A stretch of 64,000 nucleotides of DNA from Trematomus loennbergii. Lineage: Eukaryota; Chordata; Actinopteri; Perciformes; Nototheniidae. The notes beneath the pieces were generated by a model. That model was not told the DNA's origin, did not search any database, and worked only from the letters and a program-made list of their open reading frames with translations. How positions within the stretch are numbered: position 1 is the stretch's first letter; every line of letters starts with the position of its first letter. Shown one piece after another: positions 10,868-52,265 of the stretch. The DNA lies in assembly GCA_012861695.1 (NCBI GenBank), contig JAAOOA010000026.1, positions 13,201,432 through 13,265,431 on the forward strand. Direction: 5' to 3'. Position numbers and translations under genes: made by a program.

Positions 10868-13163
10868 GCAACACACTCTCACTCCATAAATGTCAGGAGC
10901 GACACTTGGTCAGGGTCCAGAGGCGTGCAGTTGGGACGCTCCTAGGCTCCTTCAGCTTCATAAACAGATGCAAATAGCTTTCAACTGATTGCAATGTATT
11001 CCCATCTGCGGCGGGATTTGACGCTCATGGAAGCACGGCATTCGTTTGTGTCGGAGGCTGTTAAAGGCAATGTGAGCGTCCATTCCCATTGGATAACGGA
11101 GAATTGTACACCGGAAGTAAGTATTCCCCTTACTGTCGATTGATTTGACAGTGATATCTCCACTACTCATCAACTCAAAAACACCAGATTATCCTTGTTA
11201 ATTAAACGACATTGATAGGTTTTAGTGTATGAACAATGCTTTTGTCACATTTTCCCCTTCAATTCTGAGAAACAAGTAGTTTTTCTATGAGTTTTGGATG
11301 GCCGAAGACATTACATTACCCACAATCCTCTGTAGCAACCATAGACTGTATAAAACAATTAAATAATACATTATTCCGAGTGTGCTTGCTTTTCTCTTTG
11401 AAAGTCATCACATAACGGCATTGTAATACACGTTTCGGCTGCATTAAATAATACATATCTGCCGTAGTTAACTCTATTTATAGAGCCCTGATGACAAGAC
11501 TTCTCGACAAACAGGAACTGCCGCCAAAACTGAAAACTTGACGTGGATCTTAAATATATAAGCAATTAAACTACATCTTACATTTCTTTTCACACAATAC
11601 GTCTCCTTGCAGTATCAACACTAATTCGGCTGACTTTTATATTTGATCCAATTGGTAGATAGGCTGTATTTACGCCATAACGGTGCACAGCTGATAGAAA
11701 GGGACACCTACTGGTTAAAGCATTAAATTGCATTTTATAATTTTATTATTAGATATTAATAGGATCCCTATAAAGTATATTCTTTACTCGTCGTTATTCT
11801 CTACTAATAGTTAATTAAAGACTGTATATAATGACTATTTATACTATATTTGATATAAGATGTATTTAGATAGTATAAGAAATGTGTAGAATATGACAAT
11901 GTAATGGTGGAGGTACACACATATTGATAGATGTCTTGTAATGCACTGTTGAGGAACCTGCGACCCAAGTTTTTCATTCATTGCATAACTACACCGTAGT
12001 TGTGTATAATATGATATGTCAATAAACCTTAGAAAATCTTGAAATCTTGAAAGGGATGTGCAAAATAGTCATTATATACAGTCTTTAATGTCAATAAACC
12101 TTAGAAAATCTTGAAATCTTGAATGGATGTGCAAAATAGTCATTATATACAGTCTTTAATTAACTATTAGTAGAGAATAACGACGAGTAAAGAATATACT
12201 TTATAGGGATCCTATTAATATCTAATAATACAATTATAAAATGCAATAACGTGCTTTAACCAGTAGGTGTCCCTTTCTATCAGCTGTGCACCGTTATGGC
12301 GTAAATACAGCCTATCTACCAATTGGATCAAATTAAAAGTCAGCCGAATTAGTGTTGATACTGCAAGGAGACGTATTGTGTGAAAAGAAATGTAAGATGT
12401 TGTTTAATTGCTTATATATTTAAGATCCACGTCAAGTTTTCAGTTTTGGCGGCAGTTCCTGTTTGTCTAGAAGTCTTGTCATCAGGGCTCTATAAATAGA
12501 GTTAACTACGGCAGATATGTAATATTTAATGCAGCCGAAACGTGTATTACAATGCCGTTATGTGATGACTATCAAAGAGAAAAGCAAGCACACTCGGAAT
12601 AATGTTTTCGGATTTCACATCGCATAAACACCAAATCCCAGCGTGCATAGCGGAATATCAGTATGAGAAAAACGGCATCATCTGTCCTTTGATCCTCACA
12701 TCGTACAAGGAAAAACTTCCAGAGAAAAACCACAGTTAATATACACACATTCCTTCACATTTACATTTTAATTTACATTAAAGTATTTCGTGAGGCCTTC
12801 TAACATGTTTTTAAATATAACTACGTTTAGTTGAAGAGTTTGTAAATTAACATGAACCGAAGCTGTTGCCTGTGGCAATATACAGTATATGGTTGCTACA
12901 GAGGATTGTGGGTAATGTAATGTCTTCGGCCATCCAAAACTCATAGAAAACTACTTGTTTCTCAGAATTGAAGGGGAAAATGTGACAAAAGCATTGTACA
13001 CACACTAAAACCTATCAATGTCATTTAATTAACAAGGATAATCTGGTGTTTTTGAGTGATGAGTAGGAGATATCACTGTCAAATCAATCGACAGTAAGGG
13101 GAATACTTACTTCCGGGTGTACAATTCTCCGTTTATCCAATGGGAATGGACGGTCACATGCCT
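10868..13163. mobile_element. Fold-back element with about 1-kb inverted arms, interrupted
   Basis: The left arm (about 10868-11860) is the reverse complement of the right arm (about 12130-13163, continued at 44089-44282), around a spacer of about 270 bp holding a duplicated segment that contains tcaataaaccttagaaaatc. Outer ends read ACACACTCTCACTCCATAAA. About 285 bp of unrelated sequence interrupts the right arm at about 12604-12888. The right arm is then split by the TTAA element. It lies just downstream of the FXYD stop codon, in the 3' UTR or beyond. Small open frames in the arms are not supported as genes. A single-arm relative lies at 50975-52135. Confidence 0.85.
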
Positions 13164-26204: not shown

Positions 26205-26590
26205 GCCATAGTTACTACTGTAGCTACGGTTCTAAGCCGTTTAAGTATTGGCCATAGTTACTACTGTAACTACGGGTCTACGCCGTGTAAATACTGGCCA
26301 TAGTTACTACTGTAACTACGGTTCTAAGCCGCGTAAGTACTGGCCATAGTTACTACTGTAACTACGGTTCTAAGCCGCGTAAGTACTGGCCATAGTTACT
26401 ACTGTAACTACGGTTCTAAGCCGCGTAAGTACTGGCCATGGTTACTACTGTAACTACGGTTCTACGCCGCGTAAATACTGGCCATAGTTACTACTTAACT
26501 ACGGTTCTAAGCCGTGTAAGTACTGTCCATAGTTACTACTGTAACTACGGTTCTAGGCGTGTAGGCTGGCCATGGTTACTACTGTAACTA
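26205..26590. repeat. 46-bp tandem array
   Basis: About eight units of the form ggccatagttactactgtaa plus ctacggttctaagccgcgta, spaced 46 bp apart (unit starts at 26250, 26296, 26342, 26388). Each unit contains a short internal inverted phrase, tagttac/gtaacta. Confidence 0.9.
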
Positions 26591-26744
26591 CAGCTCTGTG
26601 CTGTTCTCTTCTTTGGAAGCTAGTTATCTGGTCTTAAACATTGTGTTTTTGACTTGATTTCGCTTGGTTGTTAGCAGCAGCCGCTTGACTAACACCTTGC
26701 ATGGACCGTTTAGCTTCATTATTTAACTAGCTGGTGAAGGCAGT

Positions 26745-27950
26745 GCTCTCGCTCCCGCTCCGGTAACGTTGCCCTGTAACGTATCACTCTGACTATTAGC
26801 AGCGGCCACTTGGCTAACATCGCGTGTTCTGCGTGCTGCTTGATTCTTAGCAGCAGCTGCGGCTAAGCTGTCCTGTTGAACTTCTTTATTTAACCCAGCT
26901 AGGTGAAGGCAGTGCTCTCGCTCCCGCTCCCTCTGCTGGTAGCTCCGTGCTTCGTTTACTCAGCTAGGTGAAGGCAGTGCTCTCGCTCCCCGCTCCCTCT
27001 GCTAGTAACTTGCACTTTCATTTACTCAGCTAGGTGAAGGCAGTGCTCTCGCTCCCCGCTCCCTCTGCTAGTAACGTGGGTGTAGGACATTACACCCCTC
27101 TCGTGTTCGGCGAGTAGGAGCATTGCTCTACTCTTTCCGTTCAGCAGTAACTGGTGAAGGCTGTGTTCTCGCACCCCGCTCCCGGTTACGCTGCATCTGG
27201 CATTCGTCTCAAACTTAACCAGTGAAGGCAGTGCTCTCGCCCCCGCTCCTGGTAGACGCTAAACTGCCTTGTTCGTTAATCCAGCTAGGTGAAGGCAGTG
27301 CTCTCGCTCCCGCTCCCTCTGCTGGTAACGTGGGTGTAATTATATCCCTCTTTGTATTCGGCGAGTAGGAGCATTGCTCTACTCTTTCTGTTCAGCAGGT
27401 AGCTGGCGAAGGCTGTGTTCCCGCACCCGCTCCCCGTTACGCTGCATCTGGCATTTGTCTCGAACTTAACCAGTGAAGGCAGTGATCTCGCCCCCCTCCT
27501 GGTAGACGCTAAACTGCCTTGTTCGTTAATCCAGCTAGGTGAAGGCAGTGCTCTCGCTCCCGCTCCCTCTGCTGGTAACGTGGGTGTAGTTACATCCCTC
27601 TTTGTATTCGGCGAGTAGGAGCATTGCTCTACTCTTTCTGTTCAGCAGGTAGCTGGTGAAGGCGGTGTTTCCCGCACCCGCTCACGCTGCATCTGGCATT
27701 CGTCTCGAACTTAACCAGTGAAGGCAGTGTTCTCGCCCCCGCTCCTGGTAGACGCTAGACTGCCTTGTTTATTAATCCAGCTAGGTGAAGGCAGCGCTCT
27801 CGTTCCCGCTCCCTCTGCCGGTAACGTGGGTGTAATTACATCCCTCTTTCTGTTCGGCGAGTAGCAGCACCGCTCTACTCTTTCCGTTAAACAGGTAGCT
27901 GGTGCAGGCTGTGTTCCCGCACCCGCTCCCGGCTACGCTGCATCTGGCTA
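26745..27950. repeat. About 250-bp GC-rich leader array
   Basis: Four to five imperfect units of 247-253 bp; the phrase gtaacgtgggtgta starts at about 27071, 27324, 27574 and 27821. Within each unit a shorter phrase gtgaaggcagtgctctcgct recurs two or three times. It immediately precedes the DIRS ORF1 start, so it is the amplified leader of that element. Confidence 0.85.
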
Positions 27951-31963: not shown

Positions 31964-34592
31964 TAATAATAATAAATGGAATTTATAAAGCGCCTTTCAC
32001 GGGACCCAAGGTCGCTGTACATGGTGGACAGACAAAACAAAACAGACAATGAGGAGCGAACAAAACAAGAACAAATAAAATAAAATAAAGGAAGCCAGGG
32101 GACCAGGAAAAGACTAGGGTCCGAAGGCCATGGTGAACAGGTGCGTTTTAGTGAGGATTTGAAGATGTCCAGTGAGGCAGCGTTCCGGATCTCAGGAGGA
32201 AGTGCATTCCAGAGGTGGGGGCCGCAACACTGAACGCCCTGTCACCCACAGTACGAAGGCGAGCGGGGGATGGAGAGCAGGCCCGTGTCGGAGGACCGCA
32301 GACTCCGAGAAGGGGTGTAGGGATGTAGGAAGTCTGTTAAGTACTGGGGGGCGAGGGTATGGAGGGACTTGTACGTGAGAAGGAATGTTTTATAGTGAAT
32401 CCGGGACTTGACCGGCAGCCAGTGGAGGTGGATGAGGGTGGGGTTGATATGTTGCCATGGCTTAGTGCGGGTGAGAAGCCTGGCGGCAGAGTTCTGGACA
32501 TATTGGAGCCTGGCCAGGGTTTTGCTGGGAACCCCGGACAGGACTCCATTGCAGTAGTCCAGACGGGATGTGATGAAGGCGTGTATGAGTGTTTCTGCCA
32601 CAGAGTCAGAGAGTGAGGGGCGGAGTCTGGCAATGTTTTTGAGATGGTAGAAGGCGGATTTGGTAATGGATTTGATATGCGCCTGGAAAGAGAGGGTGGA
32701 GTCAGGATGACTCCCAGGTTGCGGACTTCAGTGGACGGGGAGATGGAGCAGCCGTCAATGGTGAGAAGCAGGTCACCAACCTTCTGGAGCTGCGCCTTGG
32801 GAGCCACAATGATGAGCTCAGTTTTGTTGCTGTTTATTTTTAGCAGGTTTGATGACATCCAGTTTTTGATGTCCTGGAGGCAGTTGACAAGGGAAAGAGG
32901 TGGGAGCTGTGTGGACGGTTTGGTGAAGAAAGAGAGCTGTGTGTCATCGGCATACGAGTGGAAGCTGAGACCATGTTGGCGGATGATTTGACCAAGTGGG
33001 AGCATGTAGATGGTGAATAGGAGGGGTCCAAGCACAGAGCCTTGAGGTACACCTTGGTTAACTGGGGCCAGAGGGGAGCTGCAGTCACTGATGGAAACTA
33101 AGTGAGTACTGTTAGAGAGGTAAGACTCGAACCAGGCAAGAGCTGTGTGACTGAGGCCAAGGTAGTCTGACAGGCGGCTGAGAAGGATGCTATGGGATAT
33201 TGTGTCAAAGGCAGCGGAGAGGTCCAGGAGGATGAGAATACTGATGAGGCCAGAATCAGATGCGATGAGGAGGTCATTAGTGATTTTAATGAGGGCAGTC
33301 TCAGTACTGTGATGGGATCTGAAGCCAGACTGGAGGGGTTCGTAGAGCTCATGAAATGTCATGTGGTGTTGTAGTTGTGCGGCAACTGCTCTTTCCAAGA
33401 TCTTGCTCAGGAATGGGAGGTTTGAGATTGGCCGGTGGTTGTTGAGGTCCTCCGGGTCCAAGCCAGGCTTCTTCAGGATTGGAAAGACTGAGGCAGTTTT
33501 GAGGCAGGGTGGGACTGTGCTAGAAGACAGGGACAAGTTCACAATGTCAACAATGATGGGGCAGATGGTGGATAGAGCTGCCTTGACCAAGGCTGTGGGC
33601 ATGGGGTCGAGAGAGCAGGTCGATGTCTTGGCTTTAGTGACCAGCTTGGCAATTTGGATGACATCCACTGGGGAGAAGGTGGAGAGGCAACACCTAGGTG
33701 GACGATTAATACCTTGCAGCTGGGGTGTGGTTGGAGTAGGGGAGGGCCAGGCACCAGAAGCTGCTGATGGATGGAATCAACTTTGGCCTGGAAGAAATCC
33801 AGAAACTTCGAGCAGAGATCGAGAGCACCTGGAGGATGGGGTGGGTCCAGGGGATGGAGAAGCCGGTTTATGGTTGAGAACAGCATTCTCGGTTGGGATT
33901 GTTGGATGCCAATGAGAGTGGAGTAGTACGAAGACCTAGCCAGGGAGAGGCTTCTTTGTAGGCCTTTACATGGTCCTGGTATGCTTTGCGGTGGACGGTG
34001 AGGCCAGTTCTTGTTTTGAGTCTCTCTAGCCGACGACCAGAAGCCTTCAGGGCGCGTAGTTCAGTGGTGAACCAAGGGCCGAACGGGTGAAGGAGACAGT
34101 CCGGGTTTGAGGGGGCTAGAGAGTCAAGGCTGAGGGATAGAGCTGAGTTGTAGCGAGCAACCAGGCCATCCACTGTGGTGGTAAGTATGGCAAGGTGGTC
34201 GGCAACAGCTAGGTCCAGGCACTGGAGATGGGAGGGAGGGGTGCCTATAGAGCACAACTAGGTCCAGCGTGTGACCTTTGGTGTGGGTGGGACCTTGGAC
34301 GTGCTGTGTGAGTTGAAGCAGTCGAGTAGTGAGAGAAATTCAGAGGCGAAGGGCCATGTACTGGAGTCGACATGGATGTTAAAGTCACCAAGGAGCAATG
34401 TGGATGGAGATCTGGAGCAGGCACAGGTGAGCAGCTCAGCGAAACTCAGACATGAAGACGGCGGAGGCTTTGGGGGGGCGGTATATGAGGACAACCTGTA
34501 GCTGTGGATGATCCGGGCAAAGAAAAGGCAATACATTCAAAAGAGGTTGTATTTACCACAGGGAGTTGTTTTATCGGGATTTCTGCTCCCTC
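31964..34592 (-). mobile_element. L2-clade LINE, 3' part
   Basis: On the minus strand the element runs from the endonuclease through the reverse transcriptase to a 3' end at ggcgctttataaattccatt followed by TAA repeats (31964-31975 on +), the usual L2 tail. Endonuclease pieces include LLLGDFNIHVDSSTWPF (about 34360-34430) and the linker lies at 33868-34257. The 5' 325 bp are displaced to 43555-43880 by the recombinase element, which cuts the endonuclease near a reading EIPIKQLPVVNTTSFEC. Confidence 0.9.
32242..33668 (-). pseudogene. L2 reverse transcriptase remnant
   Basis: A 443-codon frame (32337-33668) contains [50 protein letters not shown] (motif A), NQGVPQGSVLGPLLFTIYM and HSYADDTQLSFF (YADD catalytic box). 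A frameshift near 32680 moves the C-terminal part into another frame (32242-32601: [20 protein letters not shown]). Most of the RT is therefore open, but the protein as a whole is broken. Confidence 0.9.
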
Positions 34593-34675
34593 TTAGGTGC
34601 CTTGCAAACAATGGACGTCCGCTCTCGGAGCGTCGGAGTGGTGCGGTCACCCTAAGTGACAGACCTAAAGTATCC

Positions 34676-34735
34676 GGGATTCAGGCATCTTCCCTGGCTT
34701 GTACATTTTTGGAGATGCGCCCTGGAGATATCAGC
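34676..34735 (-). repeat. Left subterminal copy of the 80-bp repeat, inverted
   Basis: Read on the minus strand, this stretch gives gcgcat ... acaagccagggaagatgcct gaatcc, matching the 80-bp unit that lies on + at 41048-41575 and again near the right end at 43250-43350. It is about 80 bp inside the left boundary. Confidence 0.8.
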
Positions 34736-34780
34736 CTATTTTTAACAACTTTTCCCAGCTTTTCAAACATTTATTCCGGG

Positions 34781-34902
34781 TTTTAGCCAGTCATTTTGCA
34801 AGAAATCATTAACATTAACGGTCTCCTGAAAAAGCACATATTCTGTGCATTTTCAGGAGAGCGTCTATGTTAAATAATTTCGTGCAAAATGACTGTCTAA
34901 AA
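34781..34902. repeat. 122-bp imperfect palindrome (hairpin)
   Basis: Left half TTTTAGCCAGTCATTTTGCA pairs with right half TGCAAAATGACTGTCTAAAA. The pairing continues inward (gaaat-cattaacat with atgttaaataatttc) to an apical stem tctcctgaaa-agcaca / tgtgc-attttcaggaga around 34822-34860 with a tiny loop. It lies about 190 bp inside the left end of the recombinase element. Confidence 0.85.
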
Positions 34903-35035
34903 ACTCTCTTCCAGACATTTAAAAATACTTTCCCCGACCATTAAACATTATTTCTGGGTGGTAAAGTGCAGTAAGCGGCCTGGAGGTATTATACTATTTC
35001 AAACAACTTTTCCCCGCCTTTCAAAGACTTATTCC

Positions 35036-35490
35036 TGGGTACTGTTATCTTTCCCCCCCTGGGTGTGTGTGAGACAAGTGAAGTGAGTCAGCCTGCCAAC
35101 AAGCAGCAGTGTGCTGTCATTTGAAACATGTTCCCCCACACTGTGACTATGCTGTAGCCACCTTTCGAGCACTCTTTCCTGGGTCAATGTGTCCTCTTTC
35201 TCCCCCCCCTGGGTGTGTGTGAGACAAGTGAAGTGAGTCAGCCTGCCAACAAGCAGCAGTGTGCTGTCATTTGAAACATGTTCCCCCACAGTTTAACACA
35301 CTTTTACCTGTGTTTTGAGGACTCTTTCCTGGGTCAATGTGTCCTCTTTCTCCCCCCCCTGGTGTGTGTGAGACAAGTGAAGTGAGTCAGCCTGCCAACA
35401 AGCAGCAGTGTGCGTCATTTGAAACATGTTTACCCCACAGTGTGACTATGCTGTAGCCACGTTTCGACCACTCTTTCCTGGGTCGAAAAG
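35036..35490. repeat. About 150-bp tandem array, 3 copies
   Basis: Units share gagacaagtgaagtgagtca and ctttcctgggtcaatgtgtc; spacing is 150 and 149 bp (gagacaag at 35071, 35221, 35370). Confidence 0.9.
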
Positions 35491-36400
35491 ACATGTGCTG
35501 TAACCTGGTTCTCTCCCAGTACTGGGTACTAGTTAATGCCACTATCACCACCACATTTAAAACCAGATGAAGTGGTAGTTATCCGGGTGTTGCAGAGTCA
35601 TTTTCAGGCTCCTCTCCACAATTGTCCCCCTAAAATGATTTTAAATCATTATTTTTGCATTTAAATGCATTTATTCTATCATTTATATGGTTCCCCAACA
35701 CAATGCACATAGTCTGGAGCTCACTGGGGTCCTGCATATAATTTAATCAGGCGTTTTAACACTTTTTCCCATGAAAATGATTTTTAATCACTATCATGGG
35801 GCTATGAAAATAAAATTCCGGGTAATGCAGAGCACAAGTGCACCTTTTACTATTTAAATGTATTTGTATTATATATATTTGGGCTAGGTAGGGGACCTCT
35901 CTGGGTGATTTAGTCAGTTTATGGATTTTTTCCCACAAATCCTGGATGATCCAGGCCGAATTTGGGTGCTCATAGGCGGCCTGCCAGGCGCCCCCACCCG
36001 TGGAAAGCAAAAAAAAGTGAAGAAAACGCTTAATTATATCTTAAAATAATCAAAAATGAAGTTTTGAAAAATTGTCAAATTTTTGAAAAATTTTCAAATT
36101 TTTTCTAAGTGCCAACGGGAGTAGTGGCCAGGTGTTTGGCGCTTCGGGCCGATTTTTCCCCTTCTCCGATGGTTGGTACAACGGAGAAGGGGAAAAAGTC
36201 CCTGGGCTTCATTTCCACTTCTCTGTCAAAAAGATTCATCCATAATTTTCAGACTACCTTCCGCACGAAATCAGAAACCCAGTTTTTGGGTGGACTCAGA
36301 AAAAATACGGCTGTTGGAAATCATGGAAGAATGTATCCGCTCACCAAGCACTCTGAGTGGGCCTCATTTTGTGCCTCAAGACCCCCCAGCCTGGTTCTCC
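35491..36400. other. Recombinase element, non-repetitive spacer
   Basis: AT-rich spacer without a supported gene. Open frames near 36109-36532 overlap each other in two frames and run into the next array. The phrase gggtgc-aggcgccc near 35960-36000 is locally palindromic. Confidence 0.5.
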
Positions 36401-37290
36401 CAATACTTTAAGTTCGACATGGAGGAATGCGAGGGCACTTTTGCAGGTGACTCTATTGATTATGAGGCACTATTTTGGGATGTTTTTTTACATTTTCCTG
36501 GTTCTCCAAATAGTTTAAGTGCGACATTTTGAGCCCTGGAGGAATGCGAGGGCACTTTTGCAGGTGACTCTACCCGATTATGAGGCACTATTTTGGGATG
36601 TATTTTTTACATTTTCCCGGTTCTCCAAATAGTTTAAGTGCGACATTTTGAGCCCTGGAGGAATGCGAGGGCACTTTCCCGGTGACTCTACCCGATTTTG
36701 AGGCACTATTTTGGGGTATAATTTTTACATTTTGACCCCTTTCCCCGGTTTTCACCAAAGTTGAGTTGGATGATTTCCACCATGGAGGAATGTCAGGGGA
36801 GTCCGCGGGGGACTCTTGCGGGGTCATGAGGCACTATTTTGGGGTACAATTTTTCCATTTTGACCCCTTTCCCCGGTTTCACCAAAGTTGAGTTGGATGA
36901 TTTCCACCATGGAGGAATGTCAGGGGAGTCCGCGGGGGACTCTTGCGGGGTCATGAGGCACTATTTTGGGGTACAATTTTTCCATTTTGACCCCTTTCCC
37001 CGGTTCTCACCAAAGTTGAGTTGGATGATTTCCACCATGGAGGAATGTCAGGGGAGTCCGCGGGGGACTCTGCGGGGTCATGAGGCACTATTTTGGGGTA
37101 ATTTTTACATTTTGACCCCTTTCCCCGGTTCTCACCAAAGTTGAGTTGGTGATTTCCACCATGGAGGAATGTCAGGGGAGTCCGCGGGGGACTCCTGCGG
37201 GGTCATGAGACACTGTTTTGGGGTATAATTTTTACATTTTGACCCCTTTCCCCGGTTCTCACCAAAGTTGAGTGTGATGATTGCTGAGTC
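36401..37290. repeat. 117-128-bp tandem array, about 7 copies
   Basis: Two related subtypes follow each other. The first (about 36401-36700) has ggaggaatgcgagggcactt; the second (about 36720-37290) has ggaggaatgtcaggggagtc. Both share gaggcactattttggg, so they derive from one ancestral unit. Confidence 0.9.
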
Positions 37291-37299
37291 ATGATGCAC

Positions 37300-37875
37300 T
37301 TTTTTGGGGGTACCTCATTATCAACACGGACTAGAGATGTCTCGGAGATGGCTCGGACCCCACACCCTGGTTCTATGTAACCCTGGAGGAATGTCACATG
37401 AGTCGACAGGGGACTGCTGCTGGCTAATGAAGGACTATTTTGGGGTACATTTCCCCCATTATCAACACGGACTAGAGATGTCTCGGAGATGGCTCGGACC
37501 CCACACCCTGGTTCTATGTAACCCTGGAGGAATGTCACATGAGTCGACAGGGGACTGCTGCTGGCTAATGAAGGACTATTTTGGGGTACATTTCCCCCAT
37601 TATCAACACGGACTAGAGATGTCTCGGAGATGGCTCGGACCCCACACCCTGGTTCTATGTAACCCTGGAGGAATGTCACATGAGTCGACAGGGGACTGCT
37701 GCTGGCTAATGAAGGACTATTTTGGGGTACATTTCCCCCATTATCAACATGGACTAGAGATGTCTCGGAGATGGCTCGGACCCCACACCCTGGTTCTATG
37801 TAACCCTGGAGGAATGTCACATGAGTCGACAGGGGACTGCTGCTGGCTAATGAAGCACTATTTCCGGGTACTTTT
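37300..37875. repeat. 141-bp tandem array, 4 copies
   Basis: Units are spaced exactly 141 bp (ttatcaac at 37318, 37459, 37600, 37741) and are nearly identical. They contain ccctggaggaatgtcacatg and gactattttggggtac, linking them to the preceding array. Because 141 is a multiple of three, long open frames appear on both strands; they are not genes. Confidence 0.93.
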
Positions 37876-38297
37876 TTTTCATTTTCACCCAAATTTCCCT
37901 GGATGAAATATTTTTTAGTTTTTTTTGTTTTTAGCCCAGTTTTGGCCACAGCGTTGCCTGGAGGATAGGACCGAGATATGACAGACTCTCTGGCCGCCTC
38001 ACAAGTCACTATTGTCGGACACTTTCTTTGCTTTACCCCGGTTCTATCACTCTTTCCTCCTTTGACCATACAACCCGTTTCCTGCTGGGGTGGTGCCTGG
38101 TTCCGGGGTACCCCAAACCCTCTCATGGTCGGGGCACCATGTATGGATGCATCGGACCCAATGTTGCCATCACCAGCCCCGCGTTGGTGCGGAAGTGGGA
38201 CCATCTGACCCGGTGGTAACCCAATACTTCCCTTCGTCCATGCACCATGAATTGATGCATCGGACCCAGTGTCGCAACCACCGCTCACGCTAACGCA

Positions 38298-38303
38298 TAT
38301 AAA
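38298..38303 (+). promoter_or_regulatory. TATA box of the recombinase gene
   Basis: TATAAA stands 54-59 nt upstream of the preferred start codon, leaving room for a short 5' leader. No other core promoter motif is obvious. Confidence 0.45.
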
Positions 38304-38356
38304 CGGAGAACTATAACATCATTTTGATCAAATTCATTATGTGTGTTTCAGTAAGG

Positions 38357-40090
38357 ATGTCATCTGAATGCCCGGTGTGCAGACTCTTCTATCTGGCATT
38401 GAACAAACACCTTAAGCACAAGCATGCAGTGCGGAACTTGGAGGAGAGGGGAATCCTCCTGAAAATAGCCAGTGGAAGGATAAATGTTCGGACCAAACCC
38501 TGTCCCATCGCTGGGTGTTCGTACGCTGGGAAGAGACTGGACCGTCATGTAAAACATGACCACCCTGAGTTGTCCCGACATGAGGCACAGCAGGTCATGG
38601 CAAGGCTGAAGCATAGTGTGGCACTGCAGTTGCTCCATGACCTCCGTGAGACTAACCCCATCATTGGAATGGCTACATCATTGGATATAGACAATGAGGG
38701 GGAATACCCCGGGCACCCTCCACCCTTCTCCCCACATACCGAGTGTGACAACGAGGACTGCAGGCAGGTGATGCTGGAAAATGTGGCATTGAGGGCTCAG
38801 AAGGATGCCCTCAATGATGAGGTGAAGACCCTGCGCTCCAGGCTGAAAAAGGAGCTAAAACCCAGGAAGCAGAGTGCTGCTGTTCTTGAGGAAGAGGACG
38901 AATGTATACGATTTAAGGGCCTGGCAATCCCAAGTACCTCCGGCATAAACACAGTAGCCTCAGGCAGCAATACCCCTGTGAAGACCCCGGTGAAGACTGT
39001 CATGCAGTCCCCAGTAACCTCCGGTAGCGGGACCCCTGTGAAGACCCCGGTGAAGACTGTCATGCATTCCCCAGTAACCTCCGGTAGCGGGACCCCTGTG
39101 AAGACCCCGGTGAAGACTGTCATGCATTCCCCAGTAACCTCCGGTAGCGGGACCCCTGTGAAGACCCCGGTGAAGACTGTCATGCATTCCCCAGTAACCT
39201 CCGGTAGCGGGACCCCTGTGAGGAGCCCGGTGAAGACTGTCATGCTTGCAGTAGCCTCCGGTGGGAAGACACCGGTAAAGAACCCTGTGAAGAGCCAAGT
39301 GAAGACTGTAATGCTTGCAGTAGCCTCCGGTGGAAAGAGACCGGTCAAGAACCCTGTGAAGAGCCCAGTGAAGACTGTCATATTACCAGTTTCCTCCGGT
39401 AGCGAGACGCCTGTGAAGACCCCGGTGGAAACTGTCATGTTTGCAGTAGCCTCCGGTAGCGAGACCCCTGTGAAGACCCCGGTGGAAACTGTCATGTTTG
39501 CAGTAGCCTCCGGTAGCGAGACCCCTGTGAAGACCCCGGTGGAAACTGTCATGTTTGCAGTAGCCTCCGGTAGCGAGACCCCTGTATGCCGGAAGACCCG
39601 TGCCTCTAAGCTGGCTAATGACTTGCCCTCTCCCTCAAATTACTGGTCCACTGGGTGTGGACGGGGGAATACCATGCGTGAAATCACGTTGCCTAGAAGC
39701 ATGGAGGCGTACCTTCAGACATACTTGGATCATTGTTTGGGTGTCGCTCCGACAGTAAAACAGAAAGACAATGTTGTGTCGAAGATCAGCCGGATAAAGA
39801 ACTTCATAGTATACATGGCCCATGGTGTTAACCGCCTGTCAGACTGGCTGTTCCTAAGAAACATGAAGATGATCCGTGGCTGGAGCGAGTATATTGTAAA
39901 GCCGGGCCGGGCAGTCACAACATCAGAGTTCTTCCTGAAGAATGTGCACCAGTTCATGGGGTACATGTCTGAGTCAAAGCCCCGGGGGTGCAAGCTCACC
40001 CAGTCTGATATGACCCACATAATGAGAGAGGTGAAAGCCAACATGAAACACTTGAATAAGGCAGTCACTCTACATCAGTTTAAGGTGTAG
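38357..40090 (+). CDS. Zinc-finger / core-binding part of a tyrosine recombinase
   Basis: 577 codons from the ATG at 38357 (A at -3); an upstream in-frame ATG at 38339 is the alternative start. Two zinc fingers with identical spacing come first: C5-x2-C8-x9-H18-x4-H23 and C49-x4-C54-x9-H64-x4-H69. A predicted coiled coil follows (about residues 135-168, LRAQKDALNDEVKTLRSRL), then a domain of 20-residue repeats (about 204-410), then a helical region (about 444-570, MEAYLQTYLDHCLG ... FLKNVHQFMGYMSES) that fits the DNA-binding core domain preceding a recombinase catalytic domain. The frame ends at TAG (40088-40090) and, without any shift, stays open on the other side into the catalytic domain. 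It is thus the N-terminal half of one protein of about 895 residues, either truncated by a nonsense change or separately translated. Confidence 0.75.
   Translation: MSSECPVCRLFYLALNKHLKHKHAVRNLEERGILLKIASGRINVRTKPCPIAGCSYAGKRLDRHVKHDHPELSRHEAQQVMARLKHSVALQLLHDLRETNPIIGMATSLDIDNEGEYPGHPPPFSPHTECDNEDCRQVMLENVALRAQKDALNDEVKTLRSRLKKELKPRKQSAAVLEEEDECIRFKGLAIPSTSGINTVASGSNTPVKTPVKTVMQSPVTSGSGTPVKTPVKTVMHSPVTSGSGTPVKTPVKTVMHSPVTSGSGTPVKTPVKTVMHSPVTSGSGTPVRSPVKTVMLAVASGGKTPVKNPVKSQVKTVMLAVASGGKRPVKNPVKSPVKTVILPVSSGSETPVKTPVETVMFAVASGSETPVKTPVETVMFAVASGSETPVKTPVETVMFAVASGSETPVCRKTRASKLANDLPSPSNYWSTGCGRGNTMREITLPRSMEAYLQTYLDHCLGVAPTVKQKDNVVSKISRIKNFIVYMAHGVNRLSDWLFLRNMKMIRGWSEYIVKPGRAVTTSEFFLKNVHQFMGYMSESKPRGCKLTQSDMTHIMREVKANMKHLNKAVTLHQFKV
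38967..39587 (+). repeat. 60-bp tandem repeats within the coding frame
   Basis: About ten units of 60 bp or close derivatives, coding for SGSGTPVKTPVKTVMHSPVT and variants (SGGKTPVKNPVK, SGSETPVKTPVETVMFAVA). Unit length keeps the frame. Each repeat offers TPVK sites, the form preferred by proline-directed kinases. Confidence 0.95.
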
Positions 40091-40138
40091 AGGAACAAAC
40101 TGGATCGTCTGCCGAGCCAGGCGGAGCTTCTCGCCGCC

Positions 40139-41041
40139 ATGGCGGCCGCTGAGAAGCGCATCCCGGAGCTCCTCGACCTGATGGCCGGCACGCCGACCTC
40201 AACCACCCAGAAGCTTCTCTATGGCTATCTCACCCTCCATTGGAGCCTCCTGTATGGCCACCGTACGGGCGTGTACGCAAACATGAAAAACAGTGAGGTC
40301 TTAGAGGCAGCCATAAGGGGAACTGCTGAGGGCTACATCATCCATGTGCAGGATCACAAGACGGCCAAGACATATGGCGAAGCACAGCTGGCGCTTACAG
40401 TAGAGGAGTTTAGCTGGGTCATGCGGTGGATGGGGATTAAAAAGGTATTGCTGGGTCCTCAGAATGAATTCTTCCTTTTCACAAGGGGGAATCGGGCCTC
40501 CAAGAACCTGAACGCTCACTTGAAGAGGGCATGGGCTGATGCTGGGCTAGAAACAGCCGTCACCTTCACAATCCTGCGCACTGCCCTGGCTGACAATATC
40601 AAGCATCACCAAGATCCAGAAAGCCGGTCGATTCTCGCCAGGTTTATGTGTCACGACGTAACCACGGCGGACCGGTTCTACGCGAATGCGCCGGGAATAA
40701 AGGAGGCATTGAGAATCCGCTCCATGTTCAGGGCGTCATCAGATGCGGCAGCAGCTGCATCATCATCAGAAGGATGTCTACCGCTGTCAGATGGGGAGAC
40801 CTCCGAAGAGGGCTGCTATAACAGTACTGCTCCATCATCTCCATCATCTCCATCATCTTCACCTGATGGGTCATTGGAGCGGCAGCAGCAGCGGAAGCGG
40901 AAGCGGGAGGGAAAGAGGCCAATGAAGTCGGGACCGGGGCTGGTTGACACTCCTGATGATGGGGCAGGGGCCGTGGACTCAACCTGTTTGCCCTGGTGCA
41001 CCGTAAGAATTAGACGCCTTTGGTCCCCTGAATCCCGCTAA
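40139..41041 (+). CDS. Tyrosine-recombinase catalytic domain
   Basis: 300 codons starting at an ATG in an ideal Kozak context (gccgccATGg), 48 nt after the stop of the upstream frame and in the same reading frame. Tyrosine recombinases cut and rejoin DNA through a 3'-phosphotyrosine. Candidate catalytic residues in order: R42 (GHRTGVYANM), K74 (HKTAK), R147 (FTILRTAL, where the usual H of HxxR is T144), H172 (MCHDVTTADRFY) and nucleophile Y181. The order and spacing fit the family, and TTADRFY resembles the usual TTxxYY end block. Beyond residue 200 the chain is low-complexity (Ser, Gln, Arg runs, basic RKRKREGKR), likely a nuclear localisation region. Nearest class: Crypton-type recombinase. 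Confidence 0.75.
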   Translation: MAAAEKRIPELLDLMAGTPTSTTQKLLYGYLTLHWSLLYGHRTGVYANMKNSEVLEAAIRGTAEGYIIHVQDHKTAKTYGEAQLALTVEEFSWVMRWMGIKKVLLGPQNEFFLFTRGNRASKNLNAHLKRAWADAGLETAVTFTILRTALADNIKHHQDPESRSILARFMCHDVTTADRFYANAPGIKEALRIRSMFRASSDAAAAASSSEGCLPLSDGETSEEGCYNSTAPSSPSSPSSSPDGSLERQQQRKRKREGKRPMKSGPGLVDTPDDGAGAVDSTCLPWCTVRIRRLWSPESR

Positions 41042-41047
41042 ACATAT

Positions 41048-41575
41048 GGGCATACATTTTGTTAATAGTGCAACACCTCCAGGGCGCATAACTGCAGTTT
41101 ACAAGCCAGGGAAGGTGCCAGAATCCTGGGCATACATTTTGTTAATAGTGCAACACCTCCAGGGCGCATAACTGCAGTTTACAAGCCAGGGAAGGTGCCA
41201 GAATCCTGGGCATACATTTTGTTAATAGTGCAACACCTCCAGGGCGCATAACTGCAGTTTACAAGCCAGGGAAGGTGCCAGAATCCTGGGCATACATTTT
41301 GTTAATAGTGCAACACCTCCAGGGCGCATAACTGCAGTTTACAAGCCAGGGAAGGTGCCAGAATCCTGGGCATACATTTTGTTAATAGTGCAACACCTCC
41401 AGGGCGCATAACTGCAGTTTACAAGCCAGGGAAGGTGCCAGAATCCTGGGCATACATTTTGTTAATAGTGCAACACCTCCAGGGCGCATAACTGCAGTTT
41501 ACAAGCCAGGGAAGGTGCCAGAATCCTGGGCATACATTTTGTTAATAGTGCAACACCTCCAGGGCGCATAACTGC
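41048..41575. repeat. 80-bp tandem array, 7 copies
   Basis: Near-perfect 80-bp units (catacatttt at 41051, 41131, 41211, 41291, 41371, 41451, 41531) containing caacacctccagggcgcata and acaagccagggaaggtgcca. The array begins just after the recombinase stop codon, so it would form the 3' UTR. Related single units lie at 34676-34735 (inverted) and 43250-43350. Confidence 0.95.
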
Positions 41576-41738
41576 ACTTTAAAACGTAGGTTAAGAAATT
41601 TAGTAGTACTGTTATAGCAGCAGTAGTACGTGTAAATAGTTGATGTTTTAGTCTGTGTGTACTGTCATTTTTGTTACTGCAACGTGTAAATAGTTGATGT
41701 TTTAGGGTGTGTGGTTGATGTTTTAGGGTGTGTGTTCA

Positions 41739-41744
41739 AATAAA
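41739..41744 (+). terminator. Poly(A) signal of the recombinase gene
   Basis: AATAAA is followed by an A-rich tract (to about 41765), about 700 nt after the recombinase stop codon. It is the first such signal seen downstream of the gene. Confidence 0.5.
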
Positions 41745-41914
41745 ATTAAAAATTAAAAAAAAACAATAACCTTGATGGTTACCAGGGGCAGATAAAGTGC
41801 CACTTTCCATCAGCACCGGGGTGCTGAACCCTGTGATGAGCGCTCAAGTGTTGGCGGAGGAGGTGTAAGCCAGAGGAGGGTGAACAAAAGTTAAAGTGTT
41901 TGAACCTCCAGCCC

Positions 41915-42135
41915 AGAAGGGGGGTGGTGGTGCCGTGAAGAAGGCCGACTATGGATGCTGATGGGCGGACATAGAAGCACCACAAAATCCACCCCCTTTA
42001 GGGTCACCAGGGGCACGAGAATACCCTCAACAGAAGGGGTGGTGGTGCCGTGAAGAAGGCCGACTATGGATGCTGATGGGCGGACATAGAAGCACCACAA
42101 AATCCACCCCCTTTAGGGTCACCAGGGGCACGAGG
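41915..42135. repeat. About 115-bp tandem duplication, 2 copies
   Basis: Two units contain ggtggtgccgtgaagaaggc and ccacccccttagggtcacca. They differ by the phrase between units. Confidence 0.85.
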
Positions 42136-42250
42136 TTCTGGTGGGTGTGAATACCTGTGTTTAGTCCGTGGGGGAGTGCTTAAGTGTGGGGGCCCGGGGA
42201 CTCAGGGTGTGCAAGGTTATGGAGGTCCCACTGTTATGGGGACATGCTGG

Positions 42251-42668
42251 AGGTCATGAGTCCGTCCTTCGGGGCTCTGTGAGCGGGCACAGACAGGTGA
42301 TTTTCCCCTGGTCTCTCCTGGAGCTGTGAAATGCACAGAGTCCCACTGTTAGGGAGCCATCCTGGAGGTCATGAGTCCGTACTTTGGGGGTCTGTGAGCG
42401 GGCACAGACAGGTGATTTTCCCCTGGTCTCTCCTGGAGCTGTGAAATGCACAGAGTCCCACTGTTAGGGAGCCATCCTGGAGGTCATGAGTCCGTACTTT
42501 GGGGGTCTGTGAGCGGGCACAGACAGGTGATTTTCCCCTGGTCTCTGCTGGAGCTGTGAAATGCACAGAGTCCCACTGTTAGGGAGCCATCCTGGAGGTC
42601 ATGAGTCCGTACTTTGGGGGTCTGTGAGCGGGCACAGACAGGTGATTTTCCCCTGGTCTCTCCTGGTA
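42251..42668. repeat. 115-bp tandem array, 3.6 copies
   Basis: aggtcatgagtccg recurs at 42251, 42366, 42481 and 42596, exactly 115 bp apart. Units are almost identical (gtgagcgggcacagacaggt). The 42669-43249 stretch beyond carries a smaller triplication with ggttcctgtatattatatgc (about 43080-43215) and no gene. Confidence 0.92.
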
Positions 42669-43249
42669 ACTCCGCCCCGAGGTCCTAGAGACTCGGCGAT
42701 GGTACCATTGGATGCGGGATACGTGGAAATGGGGGGGGTACAGAAAGGCCTGAACCGAACAGAGCTTGTTATCAAAAGTTATGGATTAGTAGCAAGATTT
42801 CACAATGTAGCTCTCCAGAGTGCTGAAGGTCATTAGTCCGACAGCCGGTGGCTGAAACCCGAGTAAATGTGTTTAACTTCCCACAGTAAATGGGACCCAT
42901 GGGACCCTCCCCGAGACCCCCGATGCGTCCCCCTATTTTAGAAACCCGAGGACATATGAAAAACCAAGCTCAGTAAATGTGCATTGGCATATACTGGCGG
43001 TGGCTGTATATTATACTGCCACCGGACGTTCGGTGATCTGGAAACGCTACTTTCGGGTAGCAGAACTGGCAGAATGATCCCGGTTCCTGCATATTATATG
43101 CGGAGAGGGATGCAGAATTATCCGGTTCCTGTATATTATATGCGGAGAGGGATGCATAACTGGCAGAATGACTTCCTAAATTATCCGGTTCCTGTATATT
43201 ATATGCGGAGAGGGATCTGGAGAATACCTCCATGGCGCATAACTGCACT

Positions 43250-43350
43250 TTACAAAGGGGCCATAATCCTGGGTATACATTTTGTAAATATTGCAATACC
43301 TCCAAGGCGCATAACTGCACTTTACAAGCCAGGGAAGATGCCTGAATCCT
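43250..43350 (+). repeat. Right subterminal copies of the 80-bp repeat
   Basis: One and a half units in + orientation (ggcgcataactgcactttac, acaagccagggaagatgcct). The last is closer to the inverted left-end copy at 34676-34735 (shared gaagatgcctgaatcc) than to the central array (gaaggtgccagaatcc). Confidence 0.85.
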
Positions 43351-43554
43351 GGGGTAAACATTGTTTAATTGTTTAAGTGTTTTTAAATGTATGGAACAGT
43401 GTTTTGTCTCTTTCAAAACTCTCCCGTCATTGGCCGGATACATGGGGACGATTTTATATTGACTATGACCGTTACTATTCCAGTGAGACGAAGTACGTCC
43501 AGTGACGGGAGTGATCCCATGTTAATTTTGTCCGAAAACCAGAGCATTCCCTTA

Positions 43555-43880
43555 TCTGTGGATAACAGCCAGCCCACCACCCCGACCCAGGGAGCGGGGC
43601 TTCTGCAGGTAAACATAGCCTGGGGGTGTGGCTTGGTTTAAGGTGAAAAAGTCTTGTTGATTTTGCCAGGTCTCCGTTAGGCAAACAAAGTCCGTTTTCC
43701 TGTCAGTGATGATGTCATGAATGAGTGGTGCTTTATTATTGAGGGAACGGGTATTCAGCAGCGTGAATGTGGGGGCGTTGCTACTGGAAGCTGGCGGTGT
43801 GAGCAGAATGACACTGTCAACAGTAAAAAACATTACCAATGAGGATTGAGAGTGATGCGCACGCAGTTTGCCCAAACCGA
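43555..43880 (-). mobile_element. L2-clade LINE, displaced 5' part
   Basis: Minus-strand coding LLNTRSLNNKAPLIHDIITD, FVCLTETWQ and GRGGGLAVIHR: the first third of an L2 endonuclease, including the catalytic glutamate (TETW). It joins the L2 at 31964-34592 in strand and order, with the recombinase element between them. The 5' end is near 43880, where the right end of the TTAA element begins. Confidence 0.88.
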
Positions 43881-44088
43881 AAGCTATGTTACACTCTATA
43901 GAAAACTACGTTTATTGCCATAAATATGATGATGGATTAACCTTCAGCAGCGTTTTTCTCGTTTTAATGCCATTGAACACAACTTTTGATCAGAACAACA
44001 GCTAAGGTAAGACGTTTTTACTGAGAAGCCCTCAGACGCTGTTTCTTGCAAGATGTTGCGTTTTGCCCCGTGGGGTTTAACTGGTTAA

Positions 44089-44282
44089 CAGCCTCCGACA
44101 CAAACGAATGCCATGCTTCCATGAGCGTCAAATCCCGCCGCAGATGGGAATACATTGCAATCAGTTGAAAGCTATTTGCGTCTGTTTATGAAGCTGAAGG
44201 AGCCTAGGAGCGTCCCAACTGCACGCCTCGGGACCCTGACCAAGCGTCGCTCCTGGACGTTTATGGAGTGAGAGTGTGTTGA
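44089..44282. mobile_element. Fold-back element, end of right arm
   Basis: Continues the right arm from 13163 (cagcctccgacacaaacgaa onward) to the terminus gagtgagagtgtgttg. It is the reverse complement of about 10868-11065, and it also matches 51945-52135 with few differences. Confidence 0.9.
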
Positions 44283-44560
44283 ACATGTTGTTACTGTCAC
44301 GATCTGTCTGTGTGTTTTTTGTCATGTCTAGTTCTGTCTTTGGTTTCCTGTCAGTTGATTAGTTTGTGTGCATTTAAGTTCTGGTTTTTCTGTCTGTCTT
44401 TGTGAGATTATTGATGTTGTTGGAAGTTTTTTGTTCAGAGGGATTTTTGTGTTTTTGCCTTGCCTTATTTTACTTTGTTGCTAGTTTTGCAATAAAGTAT
44501 TTTGAATTTGGATATTCTGCATTTGGGTCCTGTGTACCTTGCCCTCCAGTCGTGACAGTT
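44283..44560. repeat. Interspersed repeat, unclassified
   Basis: T-rich sequence with cacgatctgtctgtgtgttt, tctggtttttctgtctgtct, a poly(A)-like tgcaataaagtattt and ending gtgacag. I recognise the style as a common fish repeat family but cannot name it. Confidence 0.4.
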
Positions 44561-46705: not shown

Positions 46706-46746
46706 CTCTACATCACATTTCTTGTATCTATTTTATTTTATAGAAG

Positions 46747-49665
<2,919 letters not shown>

Positions 49666-50974: not shown

Positions 50975-52135
50975 CAACACACTCACACTCCAGAATATGA
51001 CAATGTAATGGAGGTACACACATATTGATAGATGTCTTGTAATGCACTGTTGAGGAACGTGCGACCCAAGTTTTTCATTCATTGCATAACTACACCGTAG
51101 TTGTGTATAATATGATATGTCAATAAACCTTAGAAAATCTTGAAATCTTGAATGGGATGTGCAAAATAGTCATTATATACAGTCTTTAATTAACTATTAG
51201 TAGAGAATAACGACGAGTAAAGAATATACTTTATAGGGATCCTATTAATATCTAATAATACAATTATAAAATGCAATAACGTGCTTTAACCAGTAGGTGT
51301 CCCTTTCTATCAGCTGTGCACCGTTATGGCGTAAATACAGCCTATCTACCAATTGGATCAAATATAAAAGTCAGCCGAATTAGTGTTGATACTGCAAGGA
51401 GACGTATTGTGTGAAAAGAAATGTAAGATGTTGTTTAATTGCTTATATATTTAAGATCCACGTCAAGTTTTCAGTTTTGGCGGCAGTTCCTGTTTGTCTA
51501 GAAGTCTTGTCATCAGGGCTCTATAAATAGAGTTAACTACGGCAGATATGTATTATTTAATGCAGCCGAAACGTGTATTACAATGCCGTTATGTGATGAC
51601 TTTCAAAGAGAAAAGCAAGCACACTCGGAATAATGTATTATTTAATTGTTTTATACAGTCTATGGTTGCTACAGAGGATTGTGGGTAATGTAATGTCTTC
51701 GGCCATCCAAAATCATAGAAAACTACTTGTTTCTCAGAATTGAAGGGGAAAACGTGACAAAAGCATTGTACACACACTAAAACCTATCAATGTCGTTTAA
51801 TTAACAAGGATAATCTGGTGTTTTTGAGTTGATGAGTAGTGGAGATATCACTGTCAAATCAATCGACAGCATGGGGAATACTTACTTCCGGGTGTCCAAT
51901 TCTCCGTTATCCAATGGGAATGGATGCTCACATTGCCTTTAACAGCCTCCGACACAAACGAATGCCGTGCTTCCATGAGCGTCAAATCCCGCCGCAGATG
52001 GGAATACATTGCAATCAGTTGAAAGCTATTTGCGTCTGTTTATGAAGCTGAAGGAGCCTAGGAGCGTCCCAACTGCACGCCTCGGGACCCTGACCAAGCG
52101 CCGCTCCTGGACGTTTATGGAGTGAGAGTGTGTTG
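50975..52135. mobile_element. Fold-back family element, single-arm copy
   Basis: 1,161 bp with short inverted ends CAACACACTCACACTCC and GGAGTGAGAGTGTGTTG. It matches the spacer and right arm of the element at 10868-13163/44089-44282, including the uninterrupted target cctttaacagcctcc near 51937. The open frame at 51839-52045 is shared by the other copies only as repeat sequence. It lies in the intron after the signal-peptide exon. Confidence 0.88.
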
Positions 52136-52265
52136 CTCATGGTGGCACTAGAGGAAAAGTCACAGGATCACCAAAGTCAGTATGCTCTGCTCTGGGGACA
52201 ATGTATGCCTATACAAAATGGCATGGCAATCCATCCAATATTTGTTAAGATAATTTGGTCTTTGA
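52136..52265. repeat. Common fish interspersed repeat fragment
   Basis: The phrase tggtggcactagaggaaaag ... ggcaatccatccaatatttg is one I recognise as a widespread fish repeat of uncertain class. It is a fragment only. Confidence 0.5.

Follow-up and report, generated by a model that had tools for sequence, protein, structure and literature searches.

The interrupted L2 LINE

The sequence under study is a 64,000-nucleotide window of contig JAAOOA010000026.1 from the fish Trematomus loennbergii (Nototheniidae), in which a block holding one recognisable gene, at about 34590-43555, splits a minus-strand long interspersed nuclear element (LINE) of the L2 type. This gene encodes zinc fingers and a tyrosine recombinase (YR), and we consider the block to be probably a large DNA transposon mobilised by this recombinase and disabled here by a stop in its gene. 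The preliminary description of the locus, made from the letters alone, placed the whole element at 34593..43554 (plus strand), with L2 on either side; these ends are uncertain by about 10 bp.

To the left, 32242..34592 (minus strand) holds the remaining L2 endonuclease and the reverse transcriptase region, as judged from open reading frames (ORFs) and from the endonuclease join. To the right, the endonuclease start occupies 43555..43905 (minus strand) and by itself matches PF03372 (E=2.2e-5). When the two flanks were combined into one protein, the left one spliced from three reading frames, PF03372 was matched in one stretch (E=2.5e-13), which bears out the earlier observation that L2 coding sequence breaks at 34592 and resumes at 43555. 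The first 32 residues of the left side searched alone returned no match, and the join found no usable match among PDB sequences (best E=0.2). Because the endonuclease join scores higher without about 9 nt than when they are kept (50.7 versus 44.0 bits), the left end of the element may lie up to about 9 bp to the left of 34593. The tetranucleotide CTTA is present at both of the ends first given and is possibly a short direct repeat, though the true ends may differ. No piece of the block was found elsewhere in the window (0 outside the block among all 129 BLAST rows), no other copy of it was found in viral and prokaryote contigs, where fish DNA is not expected, and no relatives of the L2, sought for an empty site, were found in prokaryote contigs.

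A zinc-finger tyrosine-recombinase gene

The gene lies at 38342..41041 (plus strand) and runs in a single frame from its ATG through two C2H2-type zinc fingers, a repeat-filled linker and the tyrosine recombinase. One in-frame stop falls inside it, at 40088-40090, and two close relatives retrieved by protein search, P0001 and P0003, are unbroken at that point; the stop would disable the element at this locus. Because one frame spans 38342-41041 with only this stop, the fingers and the recombinase are one gene, which corrects the earlier account of it. TATAAA stands at 38298..38303 (plus strand), 44 bp before the ATG, and AATAAA, a possible poly(A) signal, at 41739..41744 (plus strand), in agreement with the TATA box and poly(A) signal first reported.

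The recombinase part, at 39674..41038 (plus strand), is equivalent to P0001; P0001 is a 450 aa protein on a 1570-base contig, is identical to the window protein at 445/449 residues, and may come from this very locus in a different individual. P0003 (721 aa, on a 3094-base contig) is identical at 687/716 residues and is a different copy or species. Its linker repeat is far shorter than the tandem repeat of 57- to 69-bp units that fills the window linker at 38952..39585 (plus strand), as delimited by TRF and by alignment with P0003.

The two finger motifs read C-x2-C-x9-H-x4-H and then C-x4-C-x9-H-x4-H. In the window protein they go unrecognised by Pfam, which returned no more than zf-Di19 at E=1.6, whereas their Cys and His columns are near-invariant in 24 full-length or long relatives. 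Among 54 relatives compared, many of the others being fragments, the pattern of finger 1 was found in 24, that of finger 2 in 23 and both in 17. In a second and weaker structural model, of whole P0003 (mean pLDDT 70.8, with 80-88 in the N-terminal blocks and <50 in the linker), finger 1 forms two strands and a helix and finger 2 a helix, in support of the two zinc fingers originally proposed. The model also contains a long helix at 139-193, which may be a coiled coil.

Structure comparison shows a YR fold for the recombinase, with matches to XerH, XerA, Cre and the Tn1549 and lambda integrases; among viral structures there were 4 matches at E<=0.001, including a phage integrase and nudivirus VLF-1. 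Sequence searches yielded less. Against PDB sequences the recombinase had 0 matches when searched alone and, used as a profile, a single one at E=0.37; the 54 relatives match four Pfam families in all at E<=0.01, among them PF00589 (in 6) and PF13495 (in 8), and NCBIfam and PHROGs gave matches from one member each, including XerC at 0.0045. The candidate catalytic residues listed at first reading (R42, K74, R147, H172 and Y181) all map to P0001, as R197, K229, R302, H327 and Y336, at a constant offset of 155. These R, K, R, H and Y are each kept in 45-52 of the 54 relatives, and the histidine position of the HxxR box is a threonine in 52 of the 54. The enzyme resembles the bacterial and phage integrases named above in fold and in the order of its active-site residues, and differs from them in its 8-18% identity (VIA list), its N-terminal zinc fingers, its fish host and its TxxR box.

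Three protein searches, each scoring only about 8000 candidates that shared most words, returned 2, 17 and 132 relatives, with 120 of the 132 listed. Every named organism among the relatives listed is a teleost, with the exception of P0123, a family fragment on a 4824-base contig of an Aeromonas metagenome-assembled genome, which is probably contaminating fish (host) DNA. The relatives are mostly annotated 'uncharacterized', 'hypothetical' or 'unnamed', and two are clearly misassigned; UniRef labels two as core-binding-domain proteins, consistent with a YR. In a tree of 50 rows (the window protein and 49 of the 54 relatives, 5 having been dropped for lack of the motif GHxxGV), the window protein groups with P0001 and P0003 (100/100), adjoining notothenioid proteins (99/96).

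Conservation of this architecture across distant fishes might be expected of a domesticated host gene that only resembles a mobile element. Gymnodraco acuticeps alone has at least seven LOC numbers, other species have many proteins each, and in Misgurnus and Leuciscus several relatives come from single contigs, some of them possibly isoforms or pieces. On these grounds the gene is multi-copy in teleosts and, as such, not a single-copy host gene, which settles a doubt raised when the locus was first described. The copy here is, in addition, broken and lodged inside an L2. We rejected a single-copy host gene for this copy, and regard domestication as exceedingly improbable.

Repeats and ends of the element

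No inverted repeat is present at the outermost bases (score 15), and to that extent the original statement that terminal inverted repeats are lacking stands. It overlooked inverted subterminal units of about 80 bp that contain a perfect 27-bp core, 34677-34703 being the exact reverse complement of 43323-43349. Aligned with each other, the end regions scored 64 when one was inverted and 19 when both were read directly. The highest score was 32 among 1000 dinucleotide shuffles, and 40 among 500 pairs drawn at random from the remainder of the window. When 34806-35003 was aligned more loosely to 43281-43486 the score was 94, and 200 mononucleotide shuffles reached no more than 58.

The ~80-bp unit has 11 significant nhmmer copies (E<=1.6e-13) and one at E=1.6 adjoining the array behind the gene. 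Two lie on the minus strand near the left end, at 34666..34733 (E=8.7e-15, with the core at 34677-34703) and 34920..34994 (E=1.6e-13). Seven plus-strand units form an array directly behind the gene at 41068..41624, the last of them degenerate (E=3e-26 for six and 1.6e-15; TRF 41047-41581). Two more plus-strand units lie near the right end, at 43221..43289 (E=6.8e-17) and 43292..43368 (E=1.7e-22, with the core at 43323-43349). All copies are inside the element and none was found elsewhere in the window; the model was built from its own copies and is informative only for this absence. An imperfect palindrome near the left end (34781..34902; BLAST self-match 84.6% over 123 columns) and a short inverted repeat near the right end (43421..43511; 13-bp arms, one mismatch) were also identified; within the element, upstream of the gene, 36153-36197 holds a perfect inverted repeat of 16 bp around a loop of 13 bp.

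Further tandem arrays detected by TRF fill 35053..37875 (periods of about 150, 118, 127 and 141 bp) and 41921..42666 (two arrays of 115-bp units). Taking eight spans from the TRF table, with small rows omitted, arrays cover 3768 of the 8962 bp of the block (42%), so that the satellite-like filling first noted is plain. Such a content invites the explanation that the block is a composite, in which a smaller YR element, or its gene, and satellites and other insertions entered the L2 separately and the 9-kb unit never moved as one. The array content, the lack of a second copy with the same ends within the window and the blurring of the junction by about 9 nt all favour a composite, and they count against the single transposon that we prefer, as does the threonine in the HxxR box, which weakens a Crypton-like interpretation. 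Opposed to a composite are the ~80-bp units, inverted near both ends, repeated behind the gene and found nowhere else in the window, and the resumption of the L2 frame across the block. We judge a composite origin to be improbable.

The repeats also bear on whether the block might be a decayed DIRS or Ngaro retrotransposon that has lost its reverse transcriptase, as DIRS and Ngaro elements likewise carry a YR and complex repeats, and some have a zinc finger in Gag (PMC4157794). A Pfam search of the eight other ORFs of the block gave no credible reverse transcriptase or DDE transposase, and none was found among the 54 relatives (E<=0.01). One above-cutoff match in these ORFs was to PF18697, a retroviral integrase C-terminal domain (5.9e-8; 32.7 bits, cutoff 29.2); it falls where the 141-bp satellite array happens to be read in one frame, no stretch of it passes alone, and it is taken as a repeat-driven chance match. 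The fingers, moreover, are fused to the YR in relatives from distant fishes, unlike the arrangement in DIRS and Ngaro. A DIRS or Ngaro remnant is largely refuted by the missing reverse transcriptase, and we hold it to be very unlikely.

Outside the element, a host gene resembling HSC70 is found some 3 kb to its right (46744-47049 and 47922-48365); the first piece matches PDB HSC70 at 8.3e-38, and the ORF at 47922-48365 is presumably the second piece. A repeat of about 200 bp occurs three times in the window (44085-44290, 51939-52144 and 10869-11064) at about 97% identity, with one copy inverted, and tandem arrays with 46-, 66- and ~250-bp units occupy 26205-27948.

Comparison with Cryptons and proposed movement

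Fungal and stramenopile Cryptons have terminal direct repeats of 4 to 6 bp, CryptonF carries a GCR1_C DNA-binding domain, and the YR of CryptonA is related to DUF3504. The four Pfam families that the 54 relatives match (E<=0.01) do not include GCR1_C, the presence of that model in the library not having been separately confirmed, nor do they include DUF3504, the power of its model to detect true CryptonA proteins being unchecked. The Crypton catalytic tetrad is given as R-H-R-Y in PMC3212892, and we read its H as the histidine of HxxR; here the R, R and Y are kept and that histidine is replaced, as stated above. The same source, where it treats the ends, describes the animal Crypton groups A and I as without terminal repeats; the present element has none at its outermost bases and inverted subterminal units inside.

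The element may nevertheless truly belong to one of the Crypton groups (A, V or other) for which a repeat library already has a name, an explanation that overlaps with our own and would make the element known rather than make us wrong. A YR is the only enzyme recognised in the element. CryptonV is already in Repbase (PMC8869645, PMC5753468), and zebrafish annotations summarised in PMC9341512 assign 0.9% of that genome to Cryptons; the present family has Danio members. Both reports tell against novelty, and repeat libraries may already contain the family. In the literature covered (titles and abstract openings) this family is not described, most subscription journals and Repbase Reports lying outside that coverage. 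The missing tetrad histidine, the animal Cryptons without terminal repeats and the lack of GCR1_C and DUF3504 matches are the reasons that we do not file the element as a Crypton; we put true membership at slightly short of an even chance.

The element is like Cryptons in having a YR as its sole recognised enzyme, no reverse transcriptase found and no inverted repeat at its outermost bases. Its two N-terminal fingers, its TxxR box, its inverted subterminal ~80-bp units and its 9-kb length with 42% tandem arrays set it apart. On the sequence, the element is best read as a YR DNA transposon that resembles Cryptons, with no proof of membership, and whose subterminal sites are inverted and repeated; this rests on the YR fold, the conserved catalytic residues, the finger motifs, the inverted subterminal units, the multi-copy family and the interrupted L2. 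The preliminary description had likewise proposed a Crypton-like element; it was right in outline on the nature of the element, as the fold, the multi-copy relatives and the missing reverse transcriptase indicate, and partly wrong on the gene and the ends, and the inverted subterminal repeats and the HxxR threonine fit its Crypton-like label less well.

As far as anatomy tells, the element works like a Crypton. The ~80-bp units inverted near both ends would be bound by the zinc fingers, possibly together with the core-binding half of the enzyme, and recombinase at the two ends would pair those ends. The active-site tyrosine would then cut and rejoin strands at a short matching sequence, the putative crossover site, and the element would be released as a circle able to integrate elsewhere at short homology. 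We infer the binding, the circle and the crossover site from the general Crypton proposal of Goodwin et al., as reported in PMC3212892. The ends given and the mode of movement proposed are provisional.

A bolder proposal is that the zinc-finger YR proteins form their own teleost DNA-transposon superfamily, separate from Cryptons and marked by the TxxR box, the fused fingers and ~80-bp units, arrayed behind the gene and inverted at either end, serving as multiple recombinase-binding sites. We regard this as rather unlikely; were it true, the satellite-like arrays would be working parts, not filler.

In vertebrates, DNA transposons with a YR are rare and little understood. We take the present element to be real; it may stand apart from Cryptons. 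Relatives of its enzyme are carried as unnamed proteins in many ray-finned fishes, and a teleost family of many copies, one of them near-intact, would permit direct tests of how ends are found, how the element circularises and how it integrates. The uniform threonine in the HxxR box would provide a test of the active-site residues that a tyrosine recombinase requires in order to work, and the family would allow us to ask whether the internal tandem arrays have a function or give rise to satellite DNA in fishes.

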